Shown here: positions 16,614 through 27,805 of the stretch, in pieces
How positions within the stretch are numbered: position 1 is the stretch's first letter
Layout of the letters: the number at the start of each line of letters is the position of its first letter
NCBI RefSeq assembly: GCF_900111195.1
Contig: NZ_FOGL01000025.1
Location: forward strand, 1-53,927
DNA length: 53,927 nt
Origin: Gracilibacillus ureilyticus
GTDB lineage: Bacteria > Bacillota > Bacilli > Bacillales > Amphibacillaceae
Direction of reading: 5' to 3'
Made by a program: the position numbers and the translations under genes
Notes under the pieces: model-generated
The model's input: only the letters and a program-made list of their open reading frames with translations
The model's database searches: none
Told to the model about the DNA's origin: nothing

Positions 16614-16661
16614 ATTTTTTGTGTCTTTTAATGAGTGCTTCCGCATTTCCTGCAATATTAT

Positions 16662-16735
16662 GGCGGTGTAGCTCAGCTGGCTAGAGCGTACGGTTCATAC
16701 CCGTGAGGTCGTGGGTTCGATTCCCTCCGCCGCTA
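16662..16735 (+). tRNA. tRNA-Met (anticodon CAT)
   Basis: Starts GGCGGTGTAGCTCAGCTGG and ends CCGCCGCTA, forming a full cloverleaf. The acceptor stem has G-U pairs at 1-72 and 6-67. The anticodon CAT is at 16696-16698 and the T loop is GGTTCGATTCC. It closely resembles the B. subtilis elongator tRNA-Met (trnSL-Met1) found at the same place before spoIIE. CCA is not encoded: the discriminator A is followed by TCC. The tRNA-Glu that follows it in B. subtilis is absent. It has its own promoter and terminator. Confidence 0.96.
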
Positions 16736-16752
16736 TCCTTTTAAATCAAAGT

Positions 16753-16804
16753 AAAAGCCGAACTATGATCGAATTTAATGATTCGAAGTAGTTCGGCTTT
16801 TTTT
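16753..16804 (+). terminator. tRNA-Met terminator (hairpin family copy 1)
   Basis: A 13-bp outer stem (16753-16765 with 16789-16801, GCCGAACTA/TAGTTCGGC), an inner TCGAAT/ATTCGA stem and a run of seven Ts. Homologous to the hairpins at 19202-19253 and 27761-27805. Confidence 0.92.
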
Positions 16805-16850
16805 GTGTAAACTATATTTCTTTTCTCCCTAACCAACTTCTATTGAAAAT

Positions 16851-16896
16851 TTACCAAAATTTAATAGTATTTAACGTCTACTTAATTTACTATAAA
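16851..16896 (+). promoter_or_regulatory. Candidate PhoP-box promoter of the SLH 5'-nucleotidase
   Basis: Four TTAACA-like repeats, TTACCA (16851), TTAATA (16861), TTAACG (16871) and TTAATT (16882), are spaced 10, 10 and 11 bases apart. They end directly before TATAAA (16891-16896), and there is no conventional -35. This is the arrangement of PhoP-P-activated promoters in Bacillus (direct repeats of TTAACA with about 5-base gaps upstream of the -10). A phosphate-releasing enzyme downstream fits. Confidence 0.55.
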
Positions 16897-16936
16897 AGTA
16901 GGTAGATGTTAGAAAATAAAAAGGAGTGTTTTACAT

Positions 16937-19132
16937 ATGAAGAAAGGAACAAACCCAAAAGCGGCCGCAGCCGTGGTTGCTGCAACAGCTGCACTTGTTG
17001 CTGCTCCAGCTATTCAGCTTGCAGACAGTATCCATTTTACAGATGTAGCAGAAGATCATCCTTATTATGAAGTGATCAGTGATTTTTCCTCCAAAGGGAT
17101 AATCAGCGGATATGGAGATGGAGAATTAAAACTGAATAAATCTATCTCACGCGCGGAAGTTTCCATTATTCTATCGAAAATACTGGAACTGGACTCTGAC
17201 AATACGGCACTGCCATTTACCGATGTAGAGCCTGACGCCTGGTATACAGACAGTATTAAGAAATTATTCAGTAACGATATTATCATTGGAAAAAACGCAT
17301 CCATTTTTGCTCCTGAAACAGAGGTTACTCGTGCAGAATTTGCTCAGATGCTTCTTACAGCATATGATATCCCAACAGAAGAAACGACACTGCCATTTAC
17401 TGATCTGAACTCGGAAGCATGGTATATGCCTGCTGTCACTGCCCTTTACGCAAATGGACTGATTAAAGGGATTGATGAAAATACTTTCGCTCCGGATCAG
17501 CCACTTACCCGCGGGGATGCAGTTTGGCTGCTTGCAAATACCCATAAGCAATTCAGTAACATTGATGAGGAAGAAGGCTTCTCCTTATCAATTATGCATA
17601 CAAACGATATCCATTCACATTTGGATGATATTCCAAAACTTGTCACAGCAGTGAATGAGGTTAGACAAGAAATGCCTGATGCTCTTTTACTTGATGCAGG
17701 AGATGTAAATACAGGAACGTTATATTTTCATGAGTATAAAGGACAGGCTGAGTTAGCTTTTATGAATTTAATGAAATATGATGCCATGACATTTGGTAAC
17801 CATGAATTTGACCAAGGTTCAAGCAATGAAGGTCATAAAGCATTATATGATTTTGTAACTGATGCGAATTTCCCGTTCGTCAGCTCTAATATTAATTTTT
17901 CCAAAAATCAATATATGGGAGACCTGTTCAGCGATATCTCCACAGATACTCCTAACGATGGGGAAATTTACAATAGTATTGTGAAAGAGGTTAATGGAGA
18001 AAAAATCGGTATTTTCGGTTTAACTACAGAGGAAACTGTCGATATTTCAAGCCCTGGAGACATTGAATTTGAAAATTATTTAAATGCTGCAGAAGAGGCA
18101 GTCCAGGAACTTGAAGCTCAGGGTGCTGACAAAATCATTGCACTTACACATATAGGATTTGATGATAATCCGGCTATAGACAATGACCAGCAGCTTGCTG
18201 CAAATATTGAGGGAATTGATATCATCGTTGGCGGACACAGTCATACAGAATTAGCAGAACCTGTTGTTGTTACTTCTGACGCTGAAGATATGGAACCAAC
18301 CATTATTGTCCAGGCATATCAATATGCTAACTTCTTAGGCACACTAGATGTGGAATTCGATGAAAACGGTGTGATTACCGGGTATGCCGGAGATTTAATT
18401 GAAATAGCTGAACAAGAGGATGACCCGGAAGCATTGGCATTACTGGCAACATATTCAGAAAAAGTTGAGATGGTTAAAAATGAGGAAAGCGGAGGGGTTG
18501 CAGAAGCAGAGCTGCCGAATCCACGGATAAGTGATGATAGTGATAGCAGTATCAGTGTAAGAAATTCTGAAACTGCACTTGGAAATTTAATTACAGATGG
18601 AATGCTATCAAAAGCAAAAGAGTACAATCCTGACACCTCTATTGCCGTACAGAACAGTGGGGGAATCCGGACCTTCATTGATAAAGGGCCGATAACGATT
18701 GGCGAAATTCTTACTGTAATGCCTTTTGGTAACACACTTGCTTTGATGGAATTAAAAGGCTCTGAATTGAAGGAAGCATTAGAACATAGTGTTAGCCAGA
18801 CACCTAATGAGAGTGGCGGTTTTCTTCAGGTATCAGGTATGAAGTTTACTTATGACAGTTCTGCGGAAACTGGAAACAAGGTCGGTACAGTAGAAGTTAT
18901 GCAAGATGGGGAATATGTTGAATTGGATGAAAATAAAACATATATAGTTGCAACAAATGCCTTCGCAGCAAAAGGCGGAGACGGATTTGATACATTTGCT
19001 AAAGCGTATGAAGAAGGGCGCGTTACTGACTTAGGATTATCAGACTGGGAAAACTTCCGTGACTATGTCGCTGAGCTTGGAACAGTTAATCCTTCAATTG
19101 AAGGAAGAATAGTCGATACGGCTAATCAATAA
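16937..19132 (+). CDS. Cell-surface 5'-nucleotidase with three S-layer homology domains
   Basis: Predicted to release phosphate from extracellular nucleotides. The 731-residue protein has a signal peptide (cleavage likely after APA, residue 25). Three SLH domains follow (about 33-80, 93-140 and 153-200), which bind pyruvylated cell-wall polymer. The calcineurin-type metallophosphatase domain starts near 217 (MHTNDIHSH, LLDAGDVN, GNHEFD, THIGF, GGHSH). The C-terminal 5'-nucleotidase domain has QNSGGIR, MPFGNTL and KGGDGFDTF. It belongs to the UshA/YfkN family; the exact substrate (5'-nucleotide or 2',3'-cyclic) cannot be told. It is on the plus strand, against its neighbours, and B. subtilis has nothing at this site, so it is accessory. 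AAGGAG lies ten bases before the ATG. Confidence 0.92.
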   Translation: MKKGTNPKAAAAVVAATAALVAAPAIQLADSIHFTDVAEDHPYYEVISDFSSKGIISGYGDGELKLNKSISRAEVSIILSKILELDSDNTALPFTDVEPDAWYTDSIKKLFSNDIIIGKNASIFAPETEVTRAEFAQMLLTAYDIPTEETTLPFTDLNSEAWYMPAVTALYANGLIKGIDENTFAPDQPLTRGDAVWLLANTHKQFSNIDEEEGFSLSIMHTNDIHSHLDDIPKLVTAVNEVRQEMPDALLLDAGDVNTGTLYFHEYKGQAELAFMNLMKYDAMTFGNHEFDQGSSNEGHKALYDFVTDANFPFVSSNINFSKNQYMGDLFSDISTDTPNDGEIYNSIVKEVNGEKIGIFGLTTEETVDISSPGDIEFENYLNAAEEAVQELEAQGADKIIALTHIGFDDNPAIDNDQQLAANIEGIDIIVGGHSHTELAEPVVVTSDAEDMEPTIIVQAYQYANFLGTLDVEFDENGVITGYAGDLIEIAEQEDDPEALALLATYSEKVEMVKNEESGGVAEAELPNPRISDDSDSSISVRNSETALGNLITDGMLSKAKEYNPDTSIAVQNSGGIRTFIDKGPITIGEILTVMPFGNTLALMELKGSELKEALEHSVSQTPNESGGFLQVSGMKFTYDSSAETGNKVGTVEVMQDGEYVELDENKTYIVATNAFAAKGGDGFDTFAKAYEEGRVTDLGLSDWENFRDYVAELGTVNPSIEGRIVDTANQ

Positions 19133-19201
19133 TGAGAGAGCCGTTCTCATACACAGATTGAAAAATTGAAATATGACGGTACATTTTGCAACACAAGTAA
19201 A

Positions 19202-19253
19202 AAAACCGAACTGCTTCGAATTCGATTAAAAATTCGATCACAGTTCGGTTTTT
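19202..19253. terminator. Bidirectional terminator between the nucleotidase and yabR (hairpin family copy 2)
   Basis: A 12-bp outer stem (19202-19213 with 19241-19252, ACCGAACTG/CAGTTCGGT) flanked by A and T runs, so it can end transcription from both sides. Its asymmetric interior matches copies 1 and 3 in the orientation that terminates yabR on the minus strand. The remaining bases up to 19349 hold nothing I recognise. Confidence 0.9.
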
Positions 19254-19349
19254 ACTTTGGCTAAGACTGCATTGTCCCAACCTTATCTATTTATTCTGAT
19301 TACGAGTCACATCCGTCTTTGCCCTAAATCCTACATAGACAGCAAGTGT

Positions 19350-19763
19350 TTAGCCTTTTCTCGCTCCTCGTCCCCCGCGCTTAGATTCTGTTTGTTTTTT
19401 TAATGTTGCTAAACGATCTTCAGAATCCTTTAAAAACCGATTCATTTTCTGTTCAAATGACTCGGGTCTCTCACGGTTATTATTTTTCGGATTGCCCTGA
19501 TTTTTACGACGATTTGATGGTGGCGGATTGTCTTTTGCCTTTTTTATTGATAAGCCAATCTTCCCATCATCTTCTACATTAAGAACTTTAACCGTCACTT
19601 CATCTCCAACTGTTAAATGCTCATTAATGTCTTTTACATAATTGTCGGCAACCTCACTAATATGAACGAGTCCTGTCTTTCCATCAGGTAACTCAATAAA
19701 CGCTCCAAAATTAGTGATACCTGTTACCTTTCCCTGCAACTTGCTGCCTACTTCGATTGACAT
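19350..19763 (-). CDS. yabR: S1-domain RNA-binding protein YabR
   Basis: A 137-residue protein with one S1 RNA-binding domain at the N terminus (about residues 1-72: GKVTGITNFGAFIELPDGKTGLVHISEVA) and a basic, Asn/Pro/Arg-rich tail. It belongs to the YabR/general stress protein 13 group, which associates with ribosomes in related species. It follows divIC as in B. subtilis, and AAGGAGGAG precedes the ATG. The tail ends in a GGRGARKG basic patch. Confidence 0.92.
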   Translation of the reverse strand: MSIEVGSKLQGKVTGITNFGAFIELPDGKTGLVHISEVADNYVKDINEHLTVGDEVTVKVLNVEDDGKIGLSIKKAKDNPPPSNRRKNQGNPKNNNRERPESFEQKMNRFLKDSEDRLATLKKQTESKRGGRGARKG

Positions 19764-26766: not shown

Positions 26767-27608
26767 TAAGATGATTGGATTAAACGTTGTAAATGAATCG
26801 TTAAATATAATACTTCAGATTCGTCTACATGTATATGCAGTTGTTGTTGCATAACTTTTATCAACTTCCAGGCTAGATTATAGCACAATGGATATGTTGA
26901 TTTCAAGACATTGGCTAAATTTGTTTGTTCTCCTAGAGATTCACCCTGGTATACCCTTTCAATCGCACGATGGAGATGCTGAATTAATCGGTGATAATTT
27001 ACATTATGACGGTCCAGCTTTATTTTTAAGTTTTCTTCAATAATTTGAACGAGTTTCGAAATAAGCTGATGATGTTTGTTCATGTCACGGATCGATTTAT
27101 CTGTAACAGCACTATGAATGTGTAATGCGATAAAGCCCATTTCCCCTGCCGGGAATTGAACGCCGACTTTTTCCTTCAGGATCGCAACAACTTCTTGCGC
27201 GACCTGATATTCTTTTGGATAAAGTGATTCTATTTCAAATAAAAACGGATTATTGAACTGTACCTGCTGGTGTGCCCGGTTAATCGCAAAGGAGAGGTGA
27301 TCTGTTAATGCCACATGGATATGTTCATTAAGCTTTTCTCCCATTCTTTGTTCAATAAGGACGATGATGTCGTTCAATATTTCCATTAAATCCTGGTCTA
27401 CATGTGAAATCAGCTGTTTATACTGTTCCTGTTCTTTCTCATCTTTTAACAGGAATGTTTTTTCCACTTGATTTTCCGGTACAATGTCACCGTTTTTTTT
27501 CCCAAATCCAATCCCCTTGCCAATTAGAATGACTTCTTTGTATGTTGGATGGGAGGCAATCAATACATTATTATTTAACGCTTTCTTTACGACCGTTTTC
27601 TCCTCCAT
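26766..27608 (-). CDS. glcT: Transcription antiterminator GlcT
   Basis: BglG-family RNA-binding antiterminator controlling ptsG. The 280-residue protein has an N-terminal CAT RNA-binding domain (about 1-58, LNNNVLIASHPTYKEVILIGK in part, with the GFGKKNGD motif). Two PRD phosphorylation domains follow (about 65-170 and 175-280), whose histidines respond to PtsG and HPr. A GTG at 27617 would add three residues, but GAGGTGG lies five bases before the ATG at 27608. The RAT and terminator follow immediately, then ptsG. Confidence 0.94.
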   Translation of the reverse strand: MEEKTVVKKALNNNVLIASHPTYKEVILIGKGIGFGKKNGDIVPENQVEKTFLLKDEKEQEQYKQLISHVDQDLMEILNDIIVLIEQRMGEKLNEHIHVALTDHLSFAINRAHQQVQFNNPFLFEIESLYPKEYQVAQEVVAILKEKVGVQFPAGEMGFIALHIHSAVTDKSIRDMNKHHQLISKLVQIIEENLKIKLDRHNVNYHRLIQHLHRAIERVYQGESLGEQTNLANVLKSTYPLCYNLAWKLIKVMQQQLHIHVDESEVLYLTIHLQRLIQSS

Positions 27609-27709: not shown

Positions 27710-27760
27710 TATTGAATGGCAGAGCATCCATTATCTAATTAAGAATTTTACCAACAGGAA

Positions 27761-27805
27761 AAACCGGACTACTTCGAATTATTAAAAATTCGGCCATAGT
27801 CCGGT
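27761..27805 (-). terminator. spoVT terminator (hairpin family copy 3)
   Basis: A 9-bp outer stem (27763-27771 with 27797-27805, ACCGGACTA/TAGTCCGGT), an inner CGAAT/ATTCG stem and a T run on the minus strand. CAGGAAAA (27755-27762) can also pair with TTTTCCTG (27811-27818). The stem carries compensated changes relative to copies 1 and 2. Confidence 0.88.

Follow-up and report, generated by a model that had tools for sequence, protein, structure and literature searches.

Passages of PMC4415409 list 5'-nucleotidases among the common Pho-induced enzymes and describe the PhoP boxes as direct repeats. YfkN, a nucleotide phosphoesterase that Bacillus subtilis secretes, responds to phosphate starvation by induction according to passages of PMC4744853, and Table 1 of PMC5938343 lists two 5'-nucleotidases with S-layer homology (SLH) domains in Bacillus pseudofirmus OF4, BpOF4_16655 'ushA' and BpOF4_05925. 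The gene described in this study lies in a stretch of 53,927 nucleotides of Gracilibacillus ureilyticus (contig NZ_FOGL01000025.1; hereafter the window), whose genome sequence comprises 4.07 Mb in 38 contigs, and it encodes a protein of 731 amino acids. It is the single gene between a tRNA-Met gene and a core gene which we take to be yabR (16937-19132, plus strand), and it probably belongs to the Pho regulon and specifies a cell-surface ecto-5'-nucleotidase. The OF4 proteins named in Table 1 share with it the SLH anchor joined to a 5'-nucleotidase, and two such proteins are found per genome in both organisms; this likeness is drawn from the listing and not from sequences, and the main text of PMC5938343 contains 'PhoP' and 'phosphate starvation' 0 times. 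YfkN belongs to the same superfamily, but the YfkN-type model is about twice as long and the present protein shows weak similarity to the solved YfkN chain (3gve; E-value 7.5e-14). Escherichia coli UshA, which is periplasmic, and human CD73, which is anchored by glycosylphosphatidylinositol, are by sequence two-domain metallophosphoesterase 5'-nucleotidases like the present enzyme, but both are without SLH domains.

No literature joining nucleotidase, S-layer homology, phosphate starvation and Bacillus was found, and PMC7793946, which brings together Pho regulon, S-layer, Bacillus, phosphatase and PhoP, does not have 'nucleotidase' in its main text. Judged by titles and the beginnings of abstracts, no work on a Pho promoter of Gracilibacillus was found either. 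Since the component parts are already known, the novelty is limited to their combination in this genus, for which a sequence description of the predicted Pho promoter is provided here.

In Bacillus, PhoP boxes are tandem direct repeats of about 11 bp in front of a -10 element, the box consensus is TT[ACT]A[CT]A, and PhoP activates promoters that lack a -35 element. The region in front of the present gene likewise has tandem repeats followed by a candidate -10, and the promoter and gene features are as follows.

16850 to 16876, plus strand: core of a PhoP-box-like array, TTTACC-N5-TTAATA-N4-TTAACG, identified by matrix, unique exact core and conservation in Gracilibacillus oryzae
16882 to 16887, plus strand: fourth repeat, TTAATT, not conserved
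16889 to 16894, plus strand: candidate -10, TACTAT, conserved and overlapping the TATAAA at 16891-16896
16920 to 16926, plus strand: ribosome-binding site AAAGGAG, read by eye
16937 to 19132, plus strand: predicted SLH-domain ecto-5'-nucleotidase gene, 731 amino acids
17036 to 17521, plus strand: three SLH domains (17036-17161, 17213-17344 and 17393-17521), PF00395 matches
17588 to 18247, plus strand: Metallophos domain (residues 218-437), motifs HTNDIH, LDAGDV, FGNHEFD, ALTHIG and GGHSHT
18548 to 19000, plus strand: 5_nucleotid_C domain (residues 538-688), motifs QNSGGIR, PFGNTL and GGDGFD

A sequence-only reading that preceded this analysis had described four repeats with a period of 10-11 bases. 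They are present (TTACCA at 16851, TTAATA at 16861, TTAACG at 16871 and TTAATT at 16882, with 1, 0, 1 and 1 mismatches to the consensus), but the register that best fits the pstS and phoA promoters of the genus starts at 16850 (TTTACC-N5-TTAATA) and not at 16851, and the fourth repeat is not conserved. The array differs from Bacillus PhoP boxes in one 10-bp step (16861 to 16871) and in a weak first box (TCTATT, 16839). A six-position box matrix was derived from 15 pstS sites of the genus, none of them from the G. ureilyticus genome (17 pstS loci scored above the cut-off; the own locus L146 was kept apart and L138 lay outside the search pattern), and four-box runs with a spacing of 10-12 bp were scanned with a penalty of 1 bit when the spacing was off 11. 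The site before the nucleotidase gene ranked first among 107,844 positions of the window on both strands, with 14.7 bits as compared to 10.7 bits for the next best. Its four-box score was reached in 21 of 5000 dinucleotide shuffles of the 198-bp intergenic region, and its three-box score in 65 of 5000.

G. oryzae carries the sole orthologue at the tRNA-Met/yabR site. In the block 16845-16876, 28 of 32 positions are identical in G. oryzae, versus 44% elsewhere in the gap (outside the block and excluding the 20 columns nearest the start codon), a difference that was reached in 3 of 20,000 permutations. The conservation of TTACTAT (16888-16894) suggests TACTAT (16889-16894) as the -10 element. 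The TATAAA named earlier as a -10 without a -35 indeed has no -35 of its own, but it is not conserved, and a sigma-A-like pair overlaps the array.

Similar promoters are found across the genus at pstS and phoA, where the sequence-only reading had suggested looking for such repeats. The typical pstS promoter reads TTTACA-N5-TTTACA-N5-TTAATA-N5-TTAATA-N9-TAYGAT, a frequent phoA promoter reads TTTATC/TTCACC-N5-TTTACC-N5-TTAATA-N5-TCAATA-N9 followed by a weak -10, and the nucleotidase genes whose products end in an LPxTA sorting signal are preceded by arrays such as TTTACA-N5-TTTACG-N5-TTAATT-N5-TTAATA-N9-TAGAAT. A close homologue of the window enzyme (E<=1e-60) is present, one each, in nine of the 17 genomes of the genus, and all nine genes have arrays of at least 9.5 bits within 400 bp upstream, seven of them at other loci. 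The repeats are thus retained upstream of homologous genes, both as the G. oryzae block and before the seven genes at other loci. Among control upstream regions, 10 of 416 (2.4%) reached at least 8 bits and 6 of 416 at least 12 bits; outside the genus, the corresponding numbers for homologues were 19 and 8 of 74 scored loci. The homologue upstream regions were scored at 84 of 88 loci (L079 and L120 had no open reading frame, L126 and L128 no match); L032 and L051 are one gene, and L108, with 49 bp upstream only, was counted as a miss. The most upstream start codon was taken for control and neighbouring reading frames, and the start with the best ribosome-binding site for the target genes of the homologue scoring. 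An alkaline phosphatase gene is present at a distance of about 9-14 kb from the homologue in four of seven congeners, a proximity that may reflect common descent. Alkaline phosphatase (PF00245) was found in 11 of 17 genomes, and PhoD (PF09423), tried as an additional Pho marker, in 0 of 17 at E<=0.001.

The exact core TTTAC-N6-TTAATAGT, which was picked after the promoters had been inspected, has a single occurrence in the window, and none of 100 shuffles contained it. In 239 loci (1,657,285 bases including overlaps), many of which were chosen because they contain pstS, phoA or nucleotidase genes, it was found in 23 loci representing 17 distinct sites, always upstream of one of three kinds of gene, namely pstS (10 loci, 10 distinct sites), phoA (5 distinct sites in 7 loci) and the nucleotidase gene of this strain or G. 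oryzae (2 distinct sites in 6 loci). Among the 79 loci around protein homologues in named genomes, the core matched in G. oryzae only.

Several results weigh against Pho control of this gene. The fourth repeat and the TATAAA are unconserved in G. oryzae, and the distance between the boxes and TACTAT exceeds by 2 bp that found for the -10 elements of the pstS, phoA and homologue promoters, which is also a departure from the Bacillus arrangement. A minus-strand site at 26778 equals the three-box score of 13.3 bits, and in G. oryzae the four-box score was reached in 90 of 5000 shuffles (three-box, 79 of 5000). The exact core is missing at the own pstS locus and at all seven LPxTA homologues, and the SLH homologues of four Halobacillus and two Salibacterium all have array scores below 0. 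A rigid sequence-only model of 62 positions (R1) was made from 28 pstS, phoA and LPxTA-nucleotidase promoters; promoter set A3 took 7 of 12 phoA loci, with the fragment L172 excluded, and 6 of 7 LPxTA homologues. The held-out homologue L039 scored 20.8 bits under R1, but the window site scored only 9.1 bits and G. oryzae 14.3 bits. The 25 matches that a genome-wide search listed at E<=10, with 150 of 5006 candidates scored, do not include the window site. The own phoA was missed in the same search. The weak score of the window site and the missed phoA point to an array that is real but weak or rearranged in this strain. Because of these results, the weak R1 scores included, we regard membership of the Pho regulon as probable and not as certain.

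The block could also be an ordinary sigma-A promoter (TTGAAA-16-TAGTAT, 16843-16870) that acts independently of PhoP, with the repeats as a by-product of A+T-rich sequence. This pair matches 9 of 12 hexamer positions, overlaps the block, and its TAGTAT is kept in G. oryzae. However, TTGAAA is TAGAAA in G. oryzae, and 15 pairs of this quality occur in the 3.6-kb region, where 11.4 are expected from shuffles. In addition, TTAATAGT corresponds to box 3 plus spacer, away from the -10, in 12 of 15 pstS and 5 of 7 phoA training sites, and among the loci examined a TTTAC 11 bp upstream of TTAATAGT occurs nowhere but at pstS, phoA and this gene. An ordinary sigma-A promoter is therefore improbable. 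The enzyme is a phosphatase and its homologues lie near alkaline phosphatase in the four congeners mentioned above, which argues against control by another OmpR-family regulator such as WalR, with a response to wall stress and not to phosphate. WalR sites, which are tandem repeats of about 11 bp (TGTWAH-N5-TGTWAH), resemble the array, and the gene encodes a predicted surface protein, but the matrix and the exact core derive from pstS and phoA promoters, so that we give such a regulator very little credence.

The function of the enzyme might mainly be nucleoside salvage or the removal of extracellular nucleotides, similar to CD73, with phosphate as a by-product, and the nearest solved structures are indeed the Thermus 5'-nucleotidase and CD73. 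This is quite unlikely when the promoter is considered, which resembles those of phosphate genes, and when it is noted that the SNase/5'-nucleotidase fusion and the pair of phosphatase and SLH nucleotidase genes of the same genome stand behind similar, weaker-scoring arrays. The domains, the conservation of the repeats and the likeness to pstS and phoA promoters support, at the level of prediction, the earlier proposal of a surface nucleotidase induced by phosphate starvation.

For the presumed Pho-controlled nucleotidase we propose the following course. Under low phosphate, phosphorylated PhoP would bind the tandem repeats from 16850 onward and bring in sigma-A RNA polymerase at a -10 element (likely TACTAT, 16889-16894) that has no accompanying -35. 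The nucleotidase would be exported by its putative signal peptide and held by its three N-terminal SLH domains on pyruvylated secondary wall polymer, where the two-metal phosphoesterase domain may strip phosphate from extracellular nucleotides, its presumed substrates, for uptake by Pst. The gene would have been inserted between tRNA-Met and yabR in the common ancestor of this strain and G. oryzae, and the SLH form may stand in for the LPxTA form of the seven congeners without SLH matches.

The protein is built as had been read from the sequence, with Pfam matches to SLH, Metallophos and 5_nucleotid_C. The motifs of the latter two contribute to the metal and substrate sites in enzymes of this type, and all eight motif stretches align with the Thermus 5'-nucleotidase 2z1a. 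Among solved chains, the E-values are 5e-95 for 2z1a, 7e-67 for CD73 (4h1y) and 7e-32 for UshA (1ush), with YfkN behind them, so that in sequence the Thermus 5'-nucleotidase and CD73 stand closer to the enzyme than UshA or YfkN do. Its earlier description as UshA/YfkN-type was thus right about a nucleotidase and not about the closeness to these two proteins. All 15 NCBIfam matches listed fall below the curated cut-off, and the protein thus scores as an equivalog of neither UshA nor YfkN; the best match is to positions 629-1154 of 1411 of a YfkN-type model (E 4e-125). The SLH part resembles the Sap S-layer protein in sequence matches to solved structures, and the hydrophobic N-terminus reads, by eye, as a signal peptide. 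The genome also encodes a match to the CsaB pyruvyl transferase (C37:72999-73898) with 299.8 bits against a cut-off of 213.1. The closest named relative is the protein of G. oryzae TD8, with 75% identity across all 731 residues.

The surroundings of the gene contain the following features.

16661 to 16738, plus strand: tRNA-Met (anticodon CAT), upstream neighbour, found by ARAGORN
16747 to 16806, plus strand: terminator-like hairpin behind the tRNA, a copy of a dispersed family of about 60 bp
19199 to 19259, minus strand: the hairpin family again, as a second copy in inverted orientation, where the nucleotidase and yabR genes converge
19350 to 19763, minus strand: flanking core gene, presumably yabR

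The gene had been said to lie on the strand opposite to its neighbours, which holds for the genes we take to be yabR and spoIIE but not for the tRNA, which is on the same strand. It had also been taken for a lineage-specific addition, and the comparison of the gap agrees with this. A nucleotidase occupies the tRNA-Met/yabR site in two of 17 genomes, the own genome and G011 (G. oryzae TD8), and is missing from it in the other 15, so we infer that the direction of the change was insertion. The gap measures 97-257 bp in six genomes and 540-1245 bp without a nucleotidase in seven; in G002 and G010 no tRNA was found in the stretch examined, and the sole close homologue lies elsewhere. The gaps of 540-1245 bp (L220-L224, L228 and L231) contain no convincing genes, and similar short reading frames recur in some of them, which suggests an intergenic repeat family.

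Inverted 30-bp repeats flanking the gene were considered as marks of a mobile element, and this idea was dropped because they are two of eight dispersed copies of the hairpin. Of these eight genomic copies of about 60 bp (window copy CCGAACTATGATCGAAT...ATTCGAAGTAGTTCGG), seven follow the end of an open reading frame and one follows the tRNA. In an exact-core search of the 17 genomes the window's own copy was the sole match, and diverged copies could escape such a search. A third window copy is at 27747-27804, and another copy is directly behind the gene of a 1561-residue protein described below.

The homologues of seven other congeners (L033-L039) end in a C-terminal LPDTA or LPNTA sorting signal. 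They resemble the window enzyme in the nucleotidase domain (54-57% identity) and in their PhoP-box-like arrays, but have the sorting signal in place of SLH domains and are not at the tRNA-Met/yabR site. Sortases are encoded in all 17 genomes, SLH matches at E<=1e-6 occur in four (G000, G001, G011 and G014), and CsaB is above the cut-off in two, the own genome and that of G. oryzae. All seven LPxTA homologues are in genomes without SLH matches, and both SLH forms are in SLH-bearing genomes; no close homologue at E<=1e-60 was found in the other two SLH-bearing and six SLH-less genomes. In the SLH-bearing G001 and G014, CsaB matches were only split or below the cut-off. That the anchor type follows an SLH surface is suggestive, not proof, because perhaps one event lies behind the two SLH cases.

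The nucleotidase-domain trees disagree on the origin of the SLH form. A quick tree of 48 homologues placed it with the congeners (support 82), and a careful tree of 25 homologues placed it with the Halobacillus and Salibacterium SLH forms (87/84), while a genus clade was retained at p-AU 0.26 (approximately unbiased test); the trees were therefore dropped as arbiter. We only tentatively consider, and regard as somewhat less probable than its opposite, that a Pho-controlled ecto-5'-nucleotidase has been fitted with the wall anchor of each lineage, i.e., sortase attachment (LPxTA) where SLH proteins are absent and SLH domains on an SLH surface. Kinship of the SLH form with the Halobacillus and Salibacterium SLH enzymes, in which no Pho array is recognisable, would mean that Pho control arose again at a new locus. 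Because congeners differ in their anchor, they offer a way to test whether the display of a Pho enzyme is dictated by surface architecture.

Other genes of the G. ureilyticus genome have Pho-like arrays. R1 was rejected as sole genome-wide detector because it finds pstS and several plausible phosphate genes, yet misses the own phoA and is weak on the window site. Twenty of the 25 R1 matches were inspected, of which four were inside an open frame and several had no gene behind them; seven that precede genes were taken further. The match at pstS scored 54 bits, and a score of 22.1 bits (E 6e-4) was obtained in front of an ABC ATPase gene that follows the pst-like genes. The others, with E-values of 0.03-1.1, precede an SBP_bac_8 ABC operon, a Na/Pi cotransporter-PhoU gene, the gene of an LTD/SNase/5'-nucleotidase protein, that of a CBS-GGDEF protein and a purple-acid-phosphatase-like gene.

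A second 5'-nucleotidase gene begins 45 bp behind the purple-acid-phosphatase-like gene (C35:77846-79855; pair C35:77846-81994, L238:347-4495). Its product of 697 residues is 29% identical to the window enzyme, and a single SLH domain was recognised in it. The array in front of the pair reached 11.7 bits with R1 and -0.8 with the four-box matrix; G. oryzae retains its first two boxes, the fourth box in a less exact form and the -10 TAGAAT at N9, and the sequence further upstream is poorly conserved. The secreted protein of 1561 residues (L209:492-5177, on contig C28) contains LTD, DUF5689, SNase and 5'-nucleotidase domains and has a Pho-like array of 16.9 bits. Judged from these arrays, the evidence supports, without proving, a Pho-controlled and partly S-layer-held set for phosphate scavenging in this genome. 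The two SLH 5'-nucleotidases, with the phosphatase and nuclease-nucleotidase genes behind similar arrays, suggest that in some bacilli with an S-layer a part of the phosphate scavenging takes place on that layer. The CBS-GGDEF gene, of the diguanylate cyclase family (L203:1451-2455, on contig C18), is likewise preceded by a Pho-like array (16.4 bits, E 0.04), and a link between phosphate and c-di-GMP is possible.

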